This document shows, piece by piece, positions 18,351-60,543 of a stretch of DNA of 64,000 bases. Under the pieces are notes generated by a model, which searched no databases, was not told where the DNA came from, and worked only from the letters and a program-made list of their open reading frames with translations. Where the stretch lies: positions 1 through 64,000 of the forward strand of contig JAJDUM010000035.1 in NCBI GenBank assembly GCA_022826645.1, written 5' to 3'. Position 1 is the stretch's first letter. Each line of letters begins with the position of its first letter. Position numbers and translations under genes: made by a program. Origin of the DNA: Candidatus Poribacteria bacterium (GTDB lineage Bacteria; Poribacteria; WGA-4E; PCPOR2b).

Positions 18351-18396
18351 AAATTTGTGAAAAAAGAAGGTGAAATCCAGTATTAAAGGAAGAAAC

Positions 18397-19140
18397 ATGT
18401 CCAATCTGAAGCAGGAATTATTTGAAATTGATGTCTACGGCTTCACAATCCTTGAGAACGTCCTCACTTCTGATGAAGTAGCGGAGATGAAAGAGGTTCT
18501 GATTCGATTGGTGGAGGAAAAGGGAGTCGATCGGGGAGACTGTATACACATCTCGAACCTGCCGACAATGGATCCGGTCTTCTTCAAGACGATAGACCAT
18601 CCGAGAATTTTGCCATTGTTGGAAGAGACAATGACCAATCGTGTGCCTCTGATTCTCGGCAGCCTCAACGCCCGTATCGTCCGTCCCGGCGACCCAGTAC
18701 AACGGTTACATGGGGATATCCTTGAGGACCTAATGAAGAAAGATGGGAAGAACCCCGTCATGATGAACACTGTTTGGATGCTAGACGATTTTACGCCGGA
18801 GATTGGAGCGACGCGAATCGTTCCCGGCACACATAAGAGCGGGATAAACCCGCCACCTGAGAATGTGGAGATGAAACATGTGCTTACAGCAACCGCACCG
18901 GCGGGCAGCGTCCTTGTCTTTAACGGTCAATGCTGGCACGGTGGTGGTGGGAATACCAGCGATCGGAATCGTCATGCTATTTTTGGGCACTATCGCATCG
19001 GTCCAATGATGCGCTTTCAACTTGACCCACATCACCGCTTCCCAGCGGAGTGGTTAGATTTGCTCACAGATCGCCAGAAGCAGCTGCTGCGCATGGAGGA
19101 AGGAGTAGGTGTGCTGCACGGTGCAGACCACTATGAGTAA
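18397..19140 (+). CDS. Phytanoyl-CoA dioxygenase (PhyH) family protein
   Basis: The ATG at 18397 follows AAAGGAAG. The 247-residue protein has the double-stranded beta-helix of Fe(II)/2-oxoglutarate oxygenases. The HxD motif reads LHGD (about residues 105-108), GATRIVPGTHKSG follows near 140, and the distal His is in CWHGGG (about 182) with a downstream Arg for 2-oxoglutarate. All three iron ligands are therefore present. PhyH enzymes hydroxylate small molecules; the substrate here is unknown. It lies 46 bp after the DapA-like gene, so it probably belongs to that transcript. Confidence 0.88.
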   Translation: MSNLKQELFEIDVYGFTILENVLTSDEVAEMKEVLIRLVEEKGVDRGDCIHISNLPTMDPVFFKTIDHPRILPLLEETMTNRVPLILGSLNARIVRPGDPVQRLHGDILEDLMKKDGKNPVMMNTVWMLDDFTPEIGATRIVPGTHKSGINPPPENVEMKHVLTATAPAGSVLVFNGQCWHGGGGNTSDRNRHAIFGHYRIGPMMRFQLDPHHRFPAEWLDLLTDRQKQLLRMEEGVGVLHGADHYE

Positions 19141-20707: not shown

Positions 20708-21508
20708 ATGAACAATGCTGAAAAATATCTGTTTGATCTCAACGGCTATCTGGTTATCGAGGACGTACTGACACCTGATGAGGTTGCTTTTGCCAACGAA
20801 GCTATTGACCGTCACCGAGACCAAGGACGCACCCGTCCCCGCGATCAGGCTTTGGATGGTGGTTCCCCTGCGCTCAGAGGTGATAAGGGACGTGGGGAAA
20901 TGGGCAATATGCTCAATTGGGAAGAACCGTGGTGTAATCCCTTCCGAGAGATGTTGGCACATCCACGAATTGTTCCCTATCTCAACCAAATCCTCGGCAA
21001 AGGTTTTCGGATGGATCACCACATGTTCCTGTTATCGATGGAGAAAGGGGCGGAAGGGTTCATCTTTCATGGATCTTCGGGACCGGGCTTTGATCCAAAC
21101 CAATATTATATCTTCCGCGATGGTCAGATGCACTGTGGACTGACAGTTCTTGCATTTCAACTCACGGATGTCAATCCGGGGGATGGTGGATTGATAGTTA
21201 TTCCCGGCAGCCACAAGAGTAATTTTCCATGTCCCCAAGAGATACGCCGTTATGAGAATTATCAGGAGCACGTTCGGCAGGTGGTGTGCAAAGCAGGTGG
21301 GGTTATCATCTTCACGGAAGCGGTTACGCATGGAACGTTGCCTTGGACATCGGATGAACCCCGTCGGTCGATACTCACACGCTACACGGCGGGCAATCTG
21401 GCGTATGTTCCGGCTTATCCCGTCCCTGAATGGGCGAATGAGAGACAACGGGCGGTTATGGAGCCGCCATACCATACACGGTTAGACAGGCCAGTGTTAG
21501 ATGAATAG
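20708..21508 (+). CDS. PhyH family protein with HxS in place of HxD
   Basis: The 266-residue protein matches the PhyH fold: AFQLTDVNPGDGGLIVIPGSHKSNF at about 149-173, and a distal His in VTHGTLPW (His208) with Arg219/220 after it. Where the iron-binding HxD is expected, the sequence reads IFHGSSGPGF (His121-Gly122-Ser123), so the carboxylate ligand is missing. In 2-oxoglutarate halogenases of this superfamily (SyrB2 type) the Asp is Gly or Ala, leaving room for halide. Whether this protein is a halogenase, uses another ligand, or belongs to a non-oxygenase subfamily is open. It is 29 bp upstream of the lyase-like gene. Confidence 0.8.
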   Translation: MNNAEKYLFDLNGYLVIEDVLTPDEVAFANEAIDRHRDQGRTRPRDQALDGGSPALRGDKGRGEMGNMLNWEEPWCNPFREMLAHPRIVPYLNQILGKGFRMDHHMFLLSMEKGAEGFIFHGSSGPGFDPNQYYIFRDGQMHCGLTVLAFQLTDVNPGDGGLIVIPGSHKSNFPCPQEIRRYENYQEHVRQVVCKAGGVIIFTEAVTHGTLPWTSDEPRRSILTRYTAGNLAYVPAYPVPEWANERQRAVMEPPYHTRLDRPVLDE

Positions 21509-21537
21509 TAGGTCAGACAGTCGAGGCTGCTGAAAAA

Positions 21538-22629
21538 ATGTCCAAAGGTAGAATTTACCCATCGGAAACTAAGATATTTCAGGAGGCCCACACGGGTGCA
21601 AATATCCGGCAGGTAACTGACCATCCATCAATCCATCATCAGCCCTTCTTTTTTATCCCCGCTTATGATGATGCCATGCGCTGGCTGATTTTTATTTCAT
21701 GCCGCCCCGGCTCTCCCCAGATTTTTGCTGAAGAGCGGTCCACTGGCTCGCTCATCCAACTGACAGATCGCGTGGATCTGAGCGAGTGGTCTGTTTACCC
21801 CTCACACAATGGATGTGCTGTTTTCTTTACAGCGGGAACCAGTGCTTGGCGGTTAGATCTTGAGACGCTTGAAGAACAGGAACTGGTGAATTTTGCCGCG
21901 AAAAAGAGCGGACTGGAGAACATGGTCAACTTCGTCACGGGAACAACGGGGTTGAGTTACGATGATTGCTGGTGGGCTGTGCGCCTCAGCGTTGGTGAGG
22001 GCTCTGCATTGACTATTATTGACACTGAGACCGGTGAACACGAAATCATACTTCACCGCGACAGTGTTGGCCATTTACAATTCTGTCCAGACGATTCAGA
22101 TCTGCTTTATTATGCGGGTCCCCTAACCGACCGGGTCTGGGTAGTTCGGCGGGATGGGAGTGACAATCGGCGGCTATATACTCGTAACGTCGAAAAAAAT
22201 GAGTGGATCACGCATGAATCGTGGATTCCGGGCACACGTGAGTTAGCATTTGTTGATTGGCCTCACGGCATCCGTTGCGTCCACGCAGATACCGGTATGG
22301 AACGGCGTGTTACGTCATGCAATGCTTGGCACGCGATCTGTAACCACCAAGGGACGCTCATGGTTGCTGATACAAACTTTCCCGACATTGGTTTACAGCT
22401 TTTTGATCCCCGCGATGGGATTGGTGAACCTGTGACGCTGTGCTATCCGGAAGCGTCATCTATCGGCGCGCACTGGAATGGTCCGTTTCCGTATGCGGAG
22501 GGTCCGGTTCAGGTACATGCCCCACAATATACCCATCCGCATCCCTCTTTCAGTCCTGATGGGAAGCTAGTTGTCTACACATCAGATCGAACAGGCTACA
22601 GTCAGGTATACGAGGTTGAGGTTCCATAA
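21538..22629 (+). CDS. Oligogalacturonate-lyase-like beta-propeller
   Basis: The 363-residue protein matches the oligogalacturonide lyase family, a seven-bladed propeller that cleaves short pectin fragments using Mn(II). It opens with IRQVTDHPSIHHQPFFF and ends with QYTHPHPSFSPDGK, where Gln-x2-His-x-His reproduces the metal-ligand spacing of the Yersinia enzyme. A further candidate His is in NAWHAIC. No signal peptide is seen, so it is cytoplasmic. Relation to TolB-like propellers without lyase activity remains an alternative. It is coupled to the upstream PhyH gene by a 29-bp gap. Confidence 0.75.
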   Translation: MSKGRIYPSETKIFQEAHTGANIRQVTDHPSIHHQPFFFIPAYDDAMRWLIFISCRPGSPQIFAEERSTGSLIQLTDRVDLSEWSVYPSHNGCAVFFTAGTSAWRLDLETLEEQELVNFAAKKSGLENMVNFVTGTTGLSYDDCWWAVRLSVGEGSALTIIDTETGEHEIILHRDSVGHLQFCPDDSDLLYYAGPLTDRVWVVRRDGSDNRRLYTRNVEKNEWITHESWIPGTRELAFVDWPHGIRCVHADTGMERRVTSCNAWHAICNHQGTLMVADTNFPDIGLQLFDPRDGIGEPVTLCYPEASSIGAHWNGPFPYAEGPVQVHAPQYTHPHPSFSPDGKLVVYTSDRTGYSQVYEVEVP

Positions 22630-22965: not shown

Positions 22966-23415
22966 ATGAGAGCTGTTATTCAACGTGTTAAATCTGCGAG
23001 TGTAACCGTCGAAGGAAGGGTTGTTTCGGAAATCAACAAGGGACTGCTCGTTTTTCTCGGTGTCGCGCAAGGGGATACCCCTGATGCTGTCAATTATATG
23101 GCAAGCAAAATCGCCAATCTCCGAATCTTTGAAGATGATGAAGGCTTAATGAATCTATCTGTTTTGGATGTGGGAGGTGAAGCCCTTGTCGTCTCTCAAT
23201 TCACGCTCTACGGCGACTGCCGCAAAGGAAGGCGTCCCAGCTTCATCGACGCTGCCCGACCTGAAAAAGCGGATCCGCTTTACCAAGCGTTTATGGATGA
23301 GATCTCGCGGTTGGGTGTTCCGGTTAAAGCCGGTATTTTTCAAGCGATGATGGACGTCGAACTGATTAACGACGGTCCTGTTACAATACTGCTGGATAGC
23401 GATAAGTTGTTTTGA
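22966..23415 (+). CDS. dtd: D-aminoacyl-tRNA deacylase
   Basis: Dtd hydrolyses D-amino acids (and glycine) mischarged on tRNA. The 149-residue protein has both family motifs, [17 protein letters not shown] (about residues 77-93, the SQFTL motif) and the C-terminal NDGPVTI (Gly-Pro motif, about 136-142). Length is typical. It is an ordinary housekeeping gene placed between members of the catabolic cluster, with its own upstream gap and candidate operator. Confidence 0.97.
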
Positions 23416-23451: not shown

Positions 23452-24420
23452 ATGGAACGTAAAATGGAACTTGGCTTGTACCTATTCGGCGAAGTGGACG
23501 AAGAGTGGCTGACATTTGTCAACCAACTGGGCGTTGAGGCCGTCGTCATGGCGAATCCTCGACTGCCAGGCGATGGGCGATGGGAATTTATGGATCTGCT
23601 CCAGATGCGAACCGCAATTGAAAATGTGGGGACCCGACTTGCCGCTATTGAGAATGTGCCTCCCTCTTTTTACGATAAGATTATGCTTGGGTTGCCCGGG
23701 CGGGATGAACAGATTGAGAATATGGCAGCCACCATCCGTAATATGGGGGCGGCAGGCATCGATACTTTCGGCTACCATTGGATGCCCAATAGTGTGTGGA
23801 GAACTTCCAACACAACGCCTACCAGAGGCGGGGCAACAGTTACCAGTTTCGATATGGATCTCGTTAAAGATGCACCACTTACCCACGGACGGACCTTCAC
23901 CGAGGAAGAGATGTGGGACTATTACGAATACTATATGAAGGCGATTCTTCCGGTCGCGGAAGAGGCTGGTGTGAGGCTGGCTCTCCATCCGGACGATCCG
24001 CCGGTTGAATCCCTCGGAGGGATCCCCCGTCTGTTCCGTAGCTTTGAGGGGTTCAAGCACGGCATATCGCTTGTTGACAGCCCTATGCACGGGCTCGACT
24101 TCTGTGTAGGATCTTGGTCTGAGATGGGACCGGGTGTCATTAATGCTGTCCGATACTTTGGGGAACGCGCTCGGATATTTTATGTCCATTTTCGGGATGT
24201 GCAGGGGTATGTCCCCAAGTTTGCTGAATCTTTTGTAAATGATGGGAATTGTAATATGTTTGAAGTGATGAGGGCACTAAAAGAAAGTGGATTCACCGGT
24301 TGGATGATTACGGACCATGTGCCAAACATGATAAACGATACATCGCAGGGGCACCGTGCACGCGCTTATACAATTGGGTATATGGCAGCATGCTTGGAGA
24401 GATTGAACACAACCGAGTAG
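23452..24420 (+). CDS. Mannonate dehydratase (UxuA)-like TIM-barrel protein
   Basis: UxuA dehydrates D-mannonate to 2-keto-3-deoxygluconate in glucuronate breakdown. The 322-residue protein is shorter than E. coli UxuA (394). It keeps the family metal-site segments LALHPDDPP (about residues 178-186), LDFCVGSW (about 212-219), YVHFRDVQG (about 243-251) and a late WMITDHVP. A good AGGAAG site precedes the ATG. The shorter length and divergence mean a related sugar-acid dehydratase or isomerase is possible. Confidence 0.75.
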   Translation: MERKMELGLYLFGEVDEEWLTFVNQLGVEAVVMANPRLPGDGRWEFMDLLQMRTAIENVGTRLAAIENVPPSFYDKIMLGLPGRDEQIENMAATIRNMGAAGIDTFGYHWMPNSVWRTSNTTPTRGGATVTSFDMDLVKDAPLTHGRTFTEEEMWDYYEYYMKAILPVAEEAGVRLALHPDDPPVESLGGIPRLFRSFEGFKHGISLVDSPMHGLDFCVGSWSEMGPGVINAVRYFGERARIFYVHFRDVQGYVPKFAESFVNDGNCNMFEVMRALKESGFTGWMITDHVPNMINDTSQGHRARAYTIGYMAACLERLNTTE

Positions 24421-33215: not shown

Positions 33216-34067
33216 TCATTGTAATTGGAACAGGAGTTTAGCGTAGACGATATTCTTGGTGAAAAGCAGTGGATCCATTTTTTTTCTGTAGTAACTATAA
33301 ATTTGTAGGGTCTTATTTATCTGCTTCCGAAAGACGAATTTAATGACCGACGTTTTTAGAGGCGAGGTTGATGACACAAAATGATTTAACATCTTTACTC
33401 CCGGCTCCACATAATTCTGCATTGATTCGCACATAAAATTGATAGTCGGGAGTATGTTTCGAGTTATATCAACCTTTTCGAGTAACAACAGACTGTGCTT
33501 CTCAGCAATTTTAATATAACCCTCGATGGTATTGGGAATCTCCGCAATTTGACTGCTATCGTCTTTTCTAAACATCCCCGCGACAAGCAAATATCCCTCA
33601 GGTAATAGGTATGAAGCGCATCGACGGAAACCGATTTCAGTTGGAAAATAGTTCTGAGATTCGCTCATGAGAATCAAGTTGAACTTATCATCGATGTCGA
33701 GATCTTCAAATTTTGTCTGCAAGAAGGTTAATCTTGGAATATGGTTCCCGAAATATTTTGCATGATTACTATCCGGCGAAATCGCAGTTACATCATATCC
33801 CAATTTTGCGAGTGCTCTCGCCACATCACCAATGCCACAGCCGACATCCAGAATACTCTTCACATTCTCAGGAATCGTCGCCATGAGCATATCTGTATAT
33901 TTTTGCTGCCCGTCTCGCAAACATTCGAGGGTTAATTTACCACTTTGTGTTCGTTCTTCGCTGTCCTCCCAATATCCGTAGTGCAACGAGTTCAATTTCA
34001 AGATTTCTGTGCAAAAAAACAGTTCCAAGTCTAAGCCATCAAATTCAGTGATGTTCTGCTTACCCAT
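33216..34067 (-). CDS. Class I SAM-dependent methyltransferase
   Basis: The 283-residue protein has the SAM-binding motif I ILDVGCGIGDVARAL (about residues 71-85), an acidic loop (ISPDSNH) and motif LILMSES (about 130), followed by YLLPEGYLLVAG. The start region (LFFCTEILKLNSLHYGYWED) resembles UbiE/cyclopropane-synthase-type methyltransferases. The C-terminal third is basic and aromatic-rich. The substrate is unknown. It lies 213 bp upstream of the serine-palmitoyltransferase-like gene, so a lipid-related role is possible but unsupported. Confidence 0.8.
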   Translation of the reverse strand: MGKQNITEFDGLDLELFFCTEILKLNSLHYGYWEDSEERTQSGKLTLECLRDGQQKYTDMLMATIPENVKSILDVGCGIGDVARALAKLGYDVTAISPDSNHAKYFGNHIPRLTFLQTKFEDLDIDDKFNLILMSESQNYFPTEIGFRRCASYLLPEGYLLVAGMFRKDDSSQIAEIPNTIEGYIKIAEKHSLLLLEKVDITRNILPTINFMCESMQNYVEPGVKMLNHFVSSTSPLKTSVIKFVFRKQINKTLQIYSYYRKKMDPLLFTKNIVYAKLLFQLQ

Positions 34068-34631
34068 ACGATCTTCCGCTTTAGGTTCTTTGACATTGCA
34101 ACGAAATCAGATAGGATCTAACGCAAATCGCTACCAAATGAAATTCATTCGGTTCATAGACCACAAGCGTTTTGGATGCCTCAATCAACGTGAAAAATCT
34201 AAAGGGATTGCACCCAACTCTGAGTTTATCAGTAACGCCCGTTCTGGACGACTTAGCATGTACTTGTAATATAGGCAGGAATCTCAGAGGAGGCATCGTA
34301 ATTACAAAAGAACGCCTGAAACGGTGCCACATCGTCCTAAACATGTCACACCGGTAATGTGATGCCTCTCTATCTGAGTGTAGGTCGGATATTTTGAGTT
34401 CTGTTGGATAAGATCTGTACAACCCTGATTGACGGTTATGGTAGATTTTAGAATTACTTGAACACTCTCAATGCACAACCAACCCCCTAAATCCCCCTTG
34501 TCAGGGGGACTTTGAAAACTTCTCGAAGGTTGGAGTTATTGATAGTGTCTACTTATTTGTCTAATTCACCATAAATTACCGTTGTTATTGTAGCGCACCG
34601 TCACCACTGATCTGGCTAGACCATTGCTGGA
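34068..34631. other. Intergenic region with a MITE-like repeat
   Basis: There is no supported gene in these 564 bp. The segment 34436-34575 is a dispersed repeat copy (see separate entry). The part at 34081-34430 holds an unsupported 113-codon open frame on the minus strand with no recognisable domain or ribosome site. Confidence 0.5.
34436..34575. repeat. MITE-like dispersed element, copy B
   Basis: This roughly 140-bp relative of 20481-20612 has the longer internal hairpin, CCCCCTTGTCAGGGGG, preceded by CCCCCTAAAT. It ends TCTAATTCACCATAAA, which is an imperfect inverse of its left end TTATGGTAGATTTTAGA. It carries no coding sequence. Confidence 0.65.
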
Positions 34632-36767
34632 CTACTGCTCAAATAACGATTCATCTACCTCAGCGTTGATTGTGGCTTCGCTGAACGTAATCTCGGCAGA
34701 TTTCTCACCATTATCGAATAAAATGGTATGGAAGGCAACCATCACGCCGGAAACGTCTCGATAGTCATCTAAGAACTCTTCTCGATCCGCGGGACCTTGC
34801 TCCGTGAACGCCCGAAACTGCTTTTTAATAATGTATTTCGTTTCTTGGTCGATAAAGAGCTTAATGGAACCGCCGGGGGTATCGCTGATAAGTACGACAT
34901 CTGCCATTTTGCCTTTTACATCCTCGGCACCCAGATATTGAGCAGATGTCCCCTCATTAGAAACATAGCTTAACAGAGGGATATTGTCTCGAAAAATCTC
35001 TTTTTTCCCTTCTTCAACATAAGCTGGAGGAAGGGGTTGAACCCCTTGAGGCATCACCATCCATGCAGATTGACCATTAAAAATTCGGCTCATCCGCATA
35101 CCCATTGCTGGCATACTTAGATCAGCGCGCGCCTTGTTCGGTAATACTATTGTGACTTCTCCATCAAGTTCCATCATCCCACCGGGAGTATTTACAACCA
35201 TTTTCCCTTTGGTGATAATGTTATTTACTCCCTTGAGGGTATCAAGTCCACCGTATGCTTCGACGACATCAGCAAGGATGGCCCTTGCTTTTACAACGTC
35301 CGCTTCACCCGCTTCGGGAGTAGGTTCGGGCGACGGGGGTGGAATGGTGATATCGACTTCTGCGACATCCCCGAGGGTGTCCAGCGGTTTATCAAAATCG
35401 CTGGCTTTGCCGACAGCGATGAGTGTAAATTTGTCGGGATTCAGGTATTCAGCTGCAACACGCTTGACATCTGCCTTTGAAACTTCACGAATCCCCGCCA
35501 TGAGTTGTTCAACGAAATCCTGTGGATATTCATGGTATTCATATCGAAGGGCTCTAGACAGGATTTCTCCCTTGGTATCATAATCAAACACAGAGGAGTT
35601 CATGAAGCCATCAATTGCTTGTTTTAATTCGTCATCGGTAACCTCTTCGGCTCGCATCTTTTCAACTTCAATCAGAATCGCTTCGATTGCTGTCACAGTG
35701 GCTTCCGATTTGGTTCCGCATGCAATGAAAAACACGCCAGGCACATCGTAACCTGCACCGTAATTGTTTCCGACCGAATATGCTAGTCCCTTTTCAACTC
35801 GGATGCTGTTTATCAACCGACTGGAAAACCCAATTCCCAAAATTTGGGACATCACAACCAGAGCGGGATAATCTTCATTTTTGCGCAACCAACCGATGTG
35901 TCCCATACGAATATTGGTTTGGTTCACGTCGTCCTTGTTCACGAGCGCAATTCTCTTTCCATACGCTTCAGGGATTTTGGGTTTTGGGGGCAGGTTAATC
36001 TCCGCAGGTTCCCATCCCTTGAAAACCTCCTGAATCTTTGCCAACATAGTCTCGGAATCAAAGTCTCCAAGCACACCCAAAATGATATTGTTTGGGCGGA
36101 AGAATTTTTGATAGAATGCAACGAGATCATCGCGGGTGATATTGTTAATCGTATCATACTCGGTTGTGCGTGCGTAGGGACTGTCCGCACCATAGATAAG
36201 TTTACTGAATTCTCGTCTTGTGATCGCCCCTGGATTGTCATTTCGCCGCGCTATGCCACTGCGATGTTGCACTTTTTCTAGCTCAATTTTATCCTCTCGA
36301 AATGCGGGATTCATGAGAATATCCGCGAGAATGGACAACCCTACATCAAGGTCTTCTTTCAAAACCGACACCGACGCTGAACCCGCATCATCACCGATGC
36401 CTGTTTCAACGGACGCCGCTAAATTCTCCAGAATTTCATCAAGTTCGTCTCCGGTTTTACTCGTGGTACCGCCCGTGCGCATCACTGCTCCAGTGATTGA
36501 TGCAAGCCCCACTTTGTCTGCGGGTTCGTAGATGGAACCAGTACGAATCCGCACGGAAATATCAATAATTGGGAGTTCATGGTCTTCAAGGAGATAAACA
36601 ATCATCCCATTACCTAATTCAAACCTATCAGGGACGGGTGGCTGCGGTTGATTCAGTGGTGGGTAAACGAGTCCTTCGTGGGGCTTGGTTTGTGCCTCCC
36701 CAGTAGCAGTAATTAAAACAGTTAAGACGAGACTCCATATTATCCAAGACAACAGGTGCTTTCTCAC
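34632..36767 (-). CDS. M16-family peptidase, non-catalytic-type subunit with C-terminal LolA-like domain
   Basis: The 711-residue exported protein has a signal peptide (about residues 1-25, ending ITATGEAQT) and two M16 halves spanning about residues 45-470 (FELGNGMIVYLLEDHELPIIDISVRI is the usual start). The zinc motif HxxEH is missing, as in regulatory partners of two-subunit M16 enzymes. Residues from about 495 onward form a separate domain (GGLDTLKGVNNIITKGKM, MMELDGEVTIVLPNKARAD) resembling LolA/outer-membrane lipoprotein-sorting folds. Its ATG overlaps the stop of the catalytic subunit gene (ATGA), so the two are translationally coupled. Confidence 0.85.
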   Translation of the reverse strand: MRKHLLSWIIWSLVLTVLITATGEAQTKPHEGLVYPPLNQPQPPVPDRFELGNGMIVYLLEDHELPIIDISVRIRTGSIYEPADKVGLASITGAVMRTGGTTSKTGDELDEILENLAASVETGIGDDAGSASVSVLKEDLDVGLSILADILMNPAFREDKIELEKVQHRSGIARRNDNPGAITRREFSKLIYGADSPYARTTEYDTINNITRDDLVAFYQKFFRPNNIILGVLGDFDSETMLAKIQEVFKGWEPAEINLPPKPKIPEAYGKRIALVNKDDVNQTNIRMGHIGWLRKNEDYPALVVMSQILGIGFSSRLINSIRVEKGLAYSVGNNYGAGYDVPGVFFIACGTKSEATVTAIEAILIEVEKMRAEEVTDDELKQAIDGFMNSSVFDYDTKGEILSRALRYEYHEYPQDFVEQLMAGIREVSKADVKRVAAEYLNPDKFTLIAVGKASDFDKPLDTLGDVAEVDITIPPPSPEPTPEAGEADVVKARAILADVVEAYGGLDTLKGVNNIITKGKMVVNTPGGMMELDGEVTIVLPNKARADLSMPAMGMRMSRIFNGQSAWMVMPQGVQPLPPAYVEEGKKEIFRDNIPLLSYVSNEGTSAQYLGAEDVKGKMADVVLISDTPGGSIKLFIDQETKYIIKKQFRAFTEQGPADREEFLDDYRDVSGVMVAFHTILFDNGEKSAEITFSEATINAEVDESLFEQ

Positions 36768-44632: not shown

Positions 44633-45673
44633 CTAATGTGATGCGGCTGCCTGCCCAATTCGCTCTTGGACCCGTTTAGATACGTCATAATCCGCTTCTC
44701 CGCACGGTCCCTCGAGGCGCATGGTCTCCCAGATTTTTTCATATACCCCTGTTTTCACGCCTAGTTCATCTAAAGATTTAAAAATTGCGCCAAAGTATTC
44801 CGAGGATTCAGCCATGGGAGTGTGGGATTCCCAGTTCGTCTGGGTGCCTTTTCGCTGATACCTGAAATCGGTAGAGATCCTCACTCTATCCGAGGTATTT
44901 GCGACGCCTATATGCATCATCAATGGATGAAAAATAAGGACATCCCCGAGTTGGTAATCGGATCGAAGCCAGATGCGATCGGCGTTCTTAGGTTTTGTTG
45001 TGCCGGCAACAACGACCCCTCCTTCCTCACGCCAGGCTCTGGCTTGTTCCGTATTTTCAGCCACACCCAGATAATCTTTGCCCTTCCACCACACTTCATG
45101 TAAACCCTCTTTGTGCGAATCACGCTCAATCGCTAGTCCACCAATGACCGCATCAATGTCCATCAGCGGGATCCAAGCAGTACAGAATTCTACCGGTCGG
45201 AAAAAATAGTAGTCTTGATGGGGCGGTGTTGTAAAAGAAAACTTGGGGCCATCTGCGACCTGGATACTCTTTTCGCCACTGAGCATTAGTCGCAGTCTAC
45301 CTTTGTTATCTGCCCAGCAGAAGATTGGTCCACCGAACACCCGTTCCAGCGTTTCGATAAGCTCTGGTGCTACGGACAAGGTTTCGAGTATCCCGAGATT
45401 AACAACGGCTTTTGTCACCACCCCATCGGGTGAAAACTCATTGGTCTCTGGCCATTGACCTGACCAAATTGGATCTGAGTTCGCGTCTCTATTTACAAAC
45501 CCATGTTCCTTGAGGACGTCAATAATGCCATCTCTGACGGTCTCTACCCGCTTTTTATCGAGCAGATTTCTGAAGAAAAGATATCCGTCATCCACAAATG
45601 CTGAAGACAAGATATGGGGCTCCTCTACATGAGGATCTGCCTCCTTAAGCGGAACAAATTTTGAATTGGACAT
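44633..45673 (-). CDS. PhyH family dioxygenase
   Basis: The 346-residue protein has the iron motif PPHQDYYFFRP (HxD, about residues 166-176), GGLAIERDSHKEGL, and the distal His in HPLMMHIGVANTSDRVRISTDFRYQ, whose Arg should hold 2-oxoglutarate. All three iron ligands are therefore present. GGGAGGAGAT lies 6 nt before the ATG. It is the longest of the five PhyH proteins here. It is unlinked to the other four and lies next to an ABC transporter. The substrate is unknown. Confidence 0.88.
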   Translation of the reverse strand: MSNSKFVPLKEADPHVEEPHILSSAFVDDGYLFFRNLLDKKRVETVRDGIIDVLKEHGFVNRDANSDPIWSGQWPETNEFSPDGVVTKAVVNLGILETLSVAPELIETLERVFGGPIFCWADNKGRLRLMLSGEKSIQVADGPKFSFTTPPHQDYYFFRPVEFCTAWIPLMDIDAVIGGLAIERDSHKEGLHEVWWKGKDYLGVAENTEQARAWREEGGVVVAGTTKPKNADRIWLRSDYQLGDVLIFHPLMMHIGVANTSDRVRISTDFRYQRKGTQTNWESHTPMAESSEYFGAIFKSLDELGVKTGVYEKIWETMRLEGPCGEADYDVSKRVQERIGQAAASH

Positions 45674-57573: not shown

Positions 57574-58335
57574 TTAGTCAGTTGTTTTGGGGACTTTTCG
57601 CAGCAGTTCTTGTTCCCGATCCGACAGCGTTTGGTAGAACGACTCTGTAAGCATGGGGGTGTCTTCATTTGCCTCCAGCCGCTCACGACTGATGTTGTAC
57701 CAGTGGCGGTTGTGGACAATCACAGCGAAGGGACGCGACATATCGGTGCGGTTGGGCGTACCACGGTGAACGGTACGCGGATCGGAGATTAGCACGTCTC
57801 CGGCTTTAAGCAGCAAAGGCTTGAGAGAGATTTTTCCTGCATTGGCTCTCTCCAGTATTTCGGTGCGGGGTAGATGTTGGGTACGCTCTGCGACTTCAAA
57901 AGGTCCATTCTCCAGTGTCATATCGACGAACGTAAATCGCACGGACAGCAGTGCTGGCGGGTGGCGATGCCCCGGATCCTCTTTGAACAGAAAAGGTAGA
58001 TCCGCGTGGACGTGTTGATATTCTGATCCCGATATCGGTGTGTCGGTTCCATAGTAGGAGATGTGCATGTCTTCGCCCAAGATTCGGCTGATGATCTCGA
58101 TAACCGTATCGTCGTTGAAGAAAACGGAGTGATAGAATGGCGGCGCAAAAGGCAATCCGATCGCCCATCGATTTGGACCGCGGTTGCCTTCGGGAATACG
58201 GGCGGCGACATCTTCCAGCAATAGCTGAAATGCCTGGCGACATTCTTCAAGTGCCGTCCGCGGAAAATGATCTGGTAGGATACAATGTCCGATGTCCAGA
58301 ATTTCTGCTACGCACTCATCAATATCAGTTGGCAT
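57574..58335 (-). CDS. PhyH family dioxygenase
   Basis: The 253-residue protein has YQHVHADLPFLF (HxD, about residues 107-118), ENGPFEVAERTQHL near 155 and the distal His-Arg in TVHRGTPNRTDMSRPFAV (about 208-225). All three iron ligands are therefore present. GGAGATCGGA precedes the ATG. It converges on the DUF4175 gene and is divergent from the Asp-box propeller gene at 58518. A hydroxylase for a small metabolite is the family expectation. The substrate is unknown. Confidence 0.86.
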   Translation of the reverse strand: MPTDIDECVAEILDIGHCILPDHFPRTALEECRQAFQLLLEDVAARIPEGNRGPNRWAIGLPFAPPFYHSVFFNDDTVIEIISRILGEDMHISYYGTDTPISGSEYQHVHADLPFLFKEDPGHRHPPALLSVRFTFVDMTLENGPFEVAERTQHLPRTEILERANAGKISLKPLLLKAGDVLISDPRTVHRGTPNRTDMSRPFAVIVHNRHWYNISRERLEANEDTPMLTESFYQTLSDREQELLRKVPKTTD

Positions 58336-59697: not shown

Positions 59698-60543
59698 TTA
59701 CCAATCCCCCGGCGGTGCAGACGGTGCGCCGTATGGCTTGTAGTTAGGTCCTCTACCGTAACGTAGTGGCCACCCTTGCCCCCCAACCCAGCGAAATTCC
59801 TCCTTCTTCCCACAAAGCCAGTAGAACATATGCGCACTTTGGAAACGGTTGGGACCGTAATCCGCAGCTTCAAAGTCGAAGTCGGGTTCAAGTATCCAAT
59901 CCCGTTTCGGCGGTACGGTTCGCCAGTAGTTGTATTTCAACATGTGACGCATCCCTTCCGCTGTTGACGCGGCGCGGCGGTGCCATATCGAGTAAACTGT
60001 GATGAAGATTGAACCCGCTGGGGCGGTTGTTTTCACCGTGCCCCGAATGTTGCCGTAGTGACTCATATAACGTGCGGACGCGTTGAAAAGGTGTGACCCG
60101 GGCAGGACCTCGGTAGGACCGAACCCTTCTGGTGTATCTTGCGGATAGTAGAACACTTGCAGATAATTCAGTTCAGGTCCCCATTTGGAGCCCGCATCTC
60201 GATGCCATGATTGACCGGACATCGGGCACTCGACCCGATGCTGACTCATCATGATTGGTAAACCGAAGTTTTTACCGAGTAACGATCTGACTGCACCGGC
60301 TGCCTGTGGATTGAGGATCACGTTATTAACGAACCAATCCTCTTTAAGGATTTCTGCCGGTTCAAAATAGGTGTTCTCTTCGAGATACGCGAATGCCCGG
60401 TGGTTAATTTCGTCTGGCACAACCCCTTCCAACACGAGAAACCCCTGTTGGCAGAACTCCAGCACCTGACTGTCTGTCAGGGTTGGGGGACAATCATACG
60501 TCCTGCGTTCTAAGTTAAACCGCTCTTCCTCTGTCAGTTCCAT
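59698..60543 (-). CDS. PhyH family dioxygenase
   Basis: The 281-residue protein has SWHRDAGSKWGPELN (HxD, about residues 113-127), FGPTEVLPGSHLF near 142 and the distal His/Arg in SIWHRRAASTAEGMRHMLKYNYWR (about 187-211). All iron ligands are present. AGGAGGAGGATCTCC leads to the ATG. It converges on the propeller gene, ending 16 bp after it, and its start lies 26 bp beyond the 3' end of the RNase P RNA gene on the same strand with no terminator visible between. Confidence 0.88.
   Translation of the reverse strand: MELTEEERFNLERRTYDCPPTLTDSQVLEFCQQGFLVLEGVVPDEINHRAFAYLEENTYFEPAEILKEDWFVNNVILNPQAAGAVRSLLGKNFGLPIMMSQHRVECPMSGQSWHRDAGSKWGPELNYLQVFYYPQDTPEGFGPTEVLPGSHLFNASARYMSHYGNIRGTVKTTAPAGSIFITVYSIWHRRAASTAEGMRHMLKYNYWRTVPPKRDWILEPDFDFEAADYGPNRFQSAHMFYWLCGKKEEFRWVGGQGWPLRYGRGPNYKPYGAPSAPPGDW

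Follow-up and report, generated by a model that had tools for sequence, protein, structure and literature searches.

The nearest structurally solved relative of the protein analyzed here is HygX, an enzyme of hygromycin B biosynthesis in Streptomyces hygroscopicus that adopts the PhyH fold. The titles of its PDB entries (4XC9, 4XCA, 4XCB, 4ZPI) report complexes with iron, with nickel and 2-oxoglutarate, and with hygromycin B, and the abstract of the 2015 structure paper reportedly speaks of variation in the metal coordination of HygX. Its sequence reads LHGG at the proximal iron-ligand histidine and NEALMHGT around the distal one, aligned to a family consensus of LHGG and TEALTHGT; His102, Glu202, and His206 are the corresponding residues of its chain. 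As HygX carries HGG and was solved with metal and 2-oxoglutarate, at least this member of its clade binds both without an HxD motif. A plasmid of Streptomyces sp. SAT1 carries a homologue of HygX (96% identity across the stretch compared), located near sugar genes and ~6 kb away from an APH(7'')-Ia gene. More classical members of the superfamily, human phytanoyl-CoA hydroxylase and EctD, share with the protein described below the fold, both histidines, and the arginine, but possess the HxD triad and no glutamate four residues before the distal histidine (hereafter H-4), EctD having a glutamate at H-5 instead. The Fe/2-oxoglutarate halogenases SyrB2 and CytC3 belong to the same superfamily and are far more distant than HygX. 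SyrB2 has a serine, not an acid, at H-4. Like the protein analyzed here it is devoid of the HxD carboxylate, the place of which is taken by chloride, and restoring an aspartate or a glutamate at this site is reported to abolish halogenation (PMC4019311).

The window, a 64,000-nucleotide stretch of a Candidatus Poribacteria genome, contains a PhyH gene (Table 1) that differs from these classical members. Profile analysis assigns its product to PhyH (PF05721; E 1.4e-18, 68.4 bits for a cut-off of 22), and Foldseek analysis of its AlphaFold2 model (mean pLDDT 88.7) returns Fe/2-oxoglutarate oxygenases with a best E of 1.6e-17, profile and fold thus agreeing on its membership. The HxD...H facial triad is absent from this protein, which reads HGS...H, Gly122 (codon GGA) lying between His121 and Ser123. 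The original prediction had pointed to this substitution, to the retention of His208 and Arg219/220, and to the HGD, HQD, HAD and HRD motifs in the window's remaining four PhyH proteins, all of which are confirmed when the codons and ORFs are read. A sequencing error was considered as the origin of Ser123 and ruled out: its TCT codon is at least two base changes away from any Asp codon, so that a single miscalled base does not suffice, and HGS is found at all 29 orthologous loci read. The HGS of this gene is therefore a real, conserved, and informative deviation. What had been overlooked is that a glutamate, Glu204, accompanies the loss of the aspartate.

Table 1. Features of the window, with the fused PhyH-PhyH loci of the same genome (G000); conservation counts refer to the window gene and the best 79 of 563 matches
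Feature	Position	Strand	Remarks
PhyH-family Fe/2-oxoglutarate oxygenase of the HygX-containing clade, HGS for HxD	20708..21508	+	ATG start, 266 aa
His121, proximal iron-ligand His	21068..21070	+	CAT; kept 80/80
Ser123, place of the usual iron-binding Asp	21074..21076	+	TCT
Glu204, H-4, proposed relocated metal carboxylate	21317..21319	+	GAA; kept 80/80
His208, distal iron-ligand His	21329..21331	+	CAT; kept 80/80
Arg219-Arg220, expected 2-oxoglutarate-binding Arg	21362..21367	+	kept 80/80
Oligogalacturonate-lyase-like protein	21538..22629	+	PF14583; neighbour only within genus
UxuA-like D-mannonate dehydratase	23452-24420		PF03786, E 1.7e-62; two genes downstream of the lyase-like gene
Other PhyH, HGD	18370-19140
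Other PhyH, HQD	44633-45673
Other PhyH, HAD	57574-58335
Other PhyH, HRD	59698-60543
Fused PhyH-PhyH, L042	G000:C43 near 87008-88600
Fused PhyH-PhyH, L044/L054	G000:C61 near 33654-35177

HygX is the best solved relative of the window protein by sequence (phmmer 1.6e-9; profile search 1.6e-27 vs 4.2e-15 for the next protein), and it also holds Foldseek ranks 1-15, SyrB2 appearing at ranks 37-38. Besides the PhyH fold, the two proteins have in common a glycine or serine at the HxD aspartate position, a glutamate at H-4, an HGT motif at the distal histidine, and an arginine 11 residues later; with both histidines retained, they also fall in one clade (see below). They differ by their low identity (~22%), by Gly in HygX for the Ser of the window protein, and by their context, HygX being an antibiotic enzyme of Streptomyces whereas the window gene is a conserved gene of Poribacteria. 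With regard to the orthoester-forming (oxidative cyclization) activity of the HygX type, inspection of the window ORFs did not lead us to recognize an aminoglycoside cluster. As a control, the same comparison was made with the window's four PhyH proteins that have HxD. HygX is the best PDB match of none of them and is present in the results of only one (E 0.013), for which the best solved match is DhiD; for the three others it is pentalenic acid hydroxylase, kanamycin B dioxygenase, and none. Of these, kanamycin B dioxygenase is the relative of the HAD protein (E 4.3e-13).

The substitution extends well beyond this gene. Orthologues are the best match in 54 of the 58 genomes searched, own genome included (E at most 2.9e-135, identity at least 75%), the remaining four (G008, G009, G012, and G023) having more distant matches only. 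In other genera the gene is often present as tandem copies, and among the matches listed most of the nearest loci with a name come from Candidatus Poribacteria MAGs, the top identity being 86%. The homologue alignment that had been suggested as a check comprises 80 rows, namely the window gene and the best 79 of 563 matches, hence its closest relatives rather than a wide sample; the titles name Poribacteria, Latescibacterota, Gemmatimonadota, and Caldilineaceae. In these 80 rows His121, Glu204, His208, Arg219, and Arg220 are all invariant, while the residue two past the proximal histidine is Ser in 46, Gly in 24 (16 of which stand as a gap in the alignment display), Asp in 5, Ala in 3, and Tyr in 2; HGD is found together with the glutamate in five. 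A further alignment (A1) holds 29 of 34 non-redundant sequences, L045, L050, L057, L058, and L060 being left out. The window gene is under strong purifying selection, with dN/dS values of 0.013-0.045 against seven orthologues. These values bear on the idea that the protein is not an enzyme and employs its fold solely for binding. The loss of a canonical ligand and the existence of degenerate PhyH domains in the same genome, such as the N-domains of the fused proteins described below, could be taken in its favor, but the invariance of both histidines, Glu204, and both arginines over the 80 rows, the low dN/dS, and the metal and 2-oxoglutarate named in the HygX PDB titles make it highly improbable.

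An earlier study of Poribacteria genomes found no domain family more abundant than PhyH (PMC3909097), and the 6.04 Mb genome that contains the window has at least 151 PF05721 matches; it may hold more, since 150 of 251 first-look candidates were scored. The motifs were surveyed in 150 unique domains from 160 loci, of which 138 were usable and 12 dropped. Among the 100 HxD domains, H-4 mostly holds residues such as Ser and Gly, Glu being found there in one and Asp in two. Among the 38 non-HxD domains, Glu is found at H-4 in 31 and Asp in three, amounting to an acid in 34 of 38 (Fisher p 5.5e-23, which is overstated since related genes are counted as independent). Of the four non-HxD domains devoid of an acid exactly at H-4, L040 (the same domain also being L041) reads HGQ with an Asp at H-5, L050 has an Asp at H-3, and the last two, the fused C-domains of L042 and L044, have no acid anywhere in the motif stretch read. 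Glu at H-4 also occurs in four of the 12 dropped domains: both fused-protein N-domains, L037, which has a distal Tyr, and L172, which has no proximal His. L037 (G000:C8:70000-70776) itself combines HGD with this Glu, and its relatives L255, L261, L263, and L268 keep the distal His. The Caldilineaceae genome G086, a single chromosome, was surveyed likewise, 120 of its 121 domains being usable and one dropped. There, Glu is found at H-4 in two and Asp in two of the 110 HxD domains, and the ten non-HxD domains comprise six with Glu, two with Asp, and two with HxH. The latter, L387 (WHLHR) and L384 (WHHHQ), have Ser or Gly at H-4 and are possible three-histidine sites. Lastly, 30 best-match loci were read in four genomes of other phyla (two Latescibacterota/Latescibacteria, one Gemmatimonadota, and one Caldilineaceae): in the matched domain, all 30 carry an acidic residue at either H-4 or H-5, and 29 are non-HxD. 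The Latescibacterota genomes return 50 and 74 profile matches, which were read in part.

Two trees place these domains with respect to each other. The first, calculated with a simpler model and a short search from all 138 own-genome domains and HygX after removal of the motif columns, brings the non-HxD rows together with a single HxD row among them and implies two changes. The second contains 69 rows, namely the 38 non-HxD own-genome domains, HygX, a Cupriavidus protein, the HxD domain L047, and 28 of the 99 other HxD domains taken at random. Without the motif columns, it reports a group of 41 rows (support 99/89) made up of 40 non-HxD proteins and L047; HygX and the Cupriavidus protein lie inside this group. 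A 38-row subgroup that contains HygX has a support of 99/84, the exact place of HygX being unsure because of its long branch. L047 (G000:C67:27306-27965) combines the HAD motif with a Glu at H-4 and so has both acids, and the two also occur together in two proteins of G086, the clade member L325 (HAD) and L380 (HQD). The Cupriavidus protein, L280, is encoded by an unannotated gene of a Cupriavidus necator plasmid; with LHHGA and SEALAHG, it is a clade member from beyond the sponge-symbiont phyla. Under the assumption that HxD, the rule across the superfamily, is the older state, these unrooted trees suggest about one loss of the aspartate and one regain. With about one change on the tree, the association between the missing Asp and the acid at H-4 reflects one event rather than many independent ones.

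Considered together, these data suggest that the window protein is an active HygX-type Fe(II)/2-oxoglutarate oxygenase, the metal carboxylate of which has probably moved to Glu204. In the deep PhyH clade that includes HygX, the facial triad would have been re-made by losing the HxD aspartate and gaining an acid, mostly Glu, on the turn that lies four positions ahead of the distal histidine. In the AlphaFold2 model, strands 199-203 and 207-211 are interrupted at residues 204-206, which would place Glu204 at a bend ahead of the distal histidine; the model is weakest at residues 121-140 (pLDDT 60-66), the region of His121 and Ser123. The iron ligands would thus be His121, His208, and most likely Glu204, which would supply the carboxylate from another strand. 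The 2-oxoglutarate would chelate the iron and be anchored by Arg219 or Arg220, a role that we presume from the family. The reaction with O2 would then yield a ferryl species oxidizing a C-H bond of a possibly saccharide-type substrate, by hydroxylation, oxidative demethylation, or cyclization. Alternatively, Glu204 might belong to the second sphere, orienting water or substrate around an iron held by the two histidines and water, in what would still be a HygX-clade oxygenase. The co-occurrence of Asp and Glu in some proteins indeed means that a Glu at H-4 does not have to bind the metal, and conservation by itself does not separate the first from the second sphere. However, Glu at H-4 is rare where the Asp is kept (1 of 100 domains in the own genome, 2 of 110 in G086), which fits a replacement better than an added role, and we consider the second-sphere arrangement unlikely.

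The subfamily with a different ligand, one of the options raised by the original prediction, is what fits a clade devoid of the HxD aspartate that keeps an acid near the distal histidine. Another option was a halogenase-like enzyme. In a SyrB2-type version of this reading, Ser123 would open a halide site for the chlorination or bromination of a free substrate in the halide-rich habitat of a sponge. As in SyrB2, the HxS motif provides no carboxylate (PMC4019311), and SyrB2 does appear in the fold search, although at the low ranks given above. Yet a Glu is present at H-4, and its occurrence in all 80 rows, the window gene and the best 79 of 563 matches, should disfavor a halide. HygX is far closer both by sequence and by fold, and the window protein reaches 18.2 bits with the TIGR01762 model of chlorinating enzymes, the cut-off of which is 226.3. 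The same model returned no protein above its cut-off in 84 genomes of the phylum, at most 24 candidates being scored per genome. Moreover, position 123 accepts Ala, Asp, and Tyr in close relatives, and the occurrence of the gene in 54 of 58 related genomes is unlike that of a sporadic biosynthetic gene. The window protein is therefore probably not a halogenase, and the specific SyrB2-type chemistry is very hard to reconcile with these data. It looks likely that Glu204 is the different carboxylate at the metal site which the original prediction had named as speaking against its proposal.

Better candidates for a two-histidine, halide-type site are found among the fused PhyH-PhyH proteins. Their N-domain lacks the proximal histidine in all 30 loci read, while their C-domain keeps both histidines in the 29 with a readable distal motif. 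In 21 of these, the C-domain has an Asp in an MDG/ADG motif; the other eight, seven of which come from the genus of the window, have no acid there, and these are better candidates than the window gene.

The genomic neighborhood says less about the substrate. The lyase-like gene starts after a gap of 29 bases (21509-21537), as previously described, and in five of the six genomes that represent the genus it adjoins the PhyH gene. The sixth genome has no lyase-like gene within 1.5 kb; what follows there instead is a homologue of another gene of the window, the one at 22966-23415. No such neighbor lies beside any of the 79 loci (best 79 of 563), up to 4 kb on each side. The carbohydrate link that had been drawn from this neighborhood is thus weak, and a carbohydrate operon was rejected as functional evidence, the lyase-like neighbor being conserved in the genus only. 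Two GFO/IDH/MocA genes also lie nearby in the window and, together with the UxuA-like and PF14583 neighbors, make uronate or other sugar metabolism possible. PhyH-family enzymes have been reported to demethylate 2'-O-methyl nucleosides (PMC12709175).

Taken alone, the window gene is an ordinary member of its clade, and it is the clade-wide swap that is of interest. We favor, with reasonable though not high confidence, a natural second layout of the facial triad across a whole PhyH clade, a single relocation having carried the carboxylate out of the HxD loop and onto the turn that precedes the distal histidine. This clade would then have expanded to dozens of paralogues (38) in a single Poribacteria genome, and probably in Latescibacterota as well; Gemmatimonadota, Caldilineaceae, Cupriavidus, and Streptomyces (HygX) also have members. 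Some of its fused PhyH-PhyH proteins, mostly in the genus of the window, would then have lost the acid to become true two-histidine sites. A literature search lacking most subscription papers did not return a published description of such a clade or of a PhyH protein with HxG. In prolyl 4-hydroxylase, a designed rearrangement of the triad is reported to have destroyed activity (PMC2767507), which speaks against Glu204 as a direct ligand; if Glu204 is a ligand, the 2-His-1-carboxylate triad would have been rewired in nature where this design failed. In practice, PhyH proteins without HxD should not be called halogenases on that ground, and an acid at H-4, as found in 34 of the 38 non-HxD domains of the own genome, offers a simple sequence filter. 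Of the 138 PhyH domains read in this genome, 38, over a quarter, belong to this group, whose closest relative of solved structure is a single enzyme, HygX.
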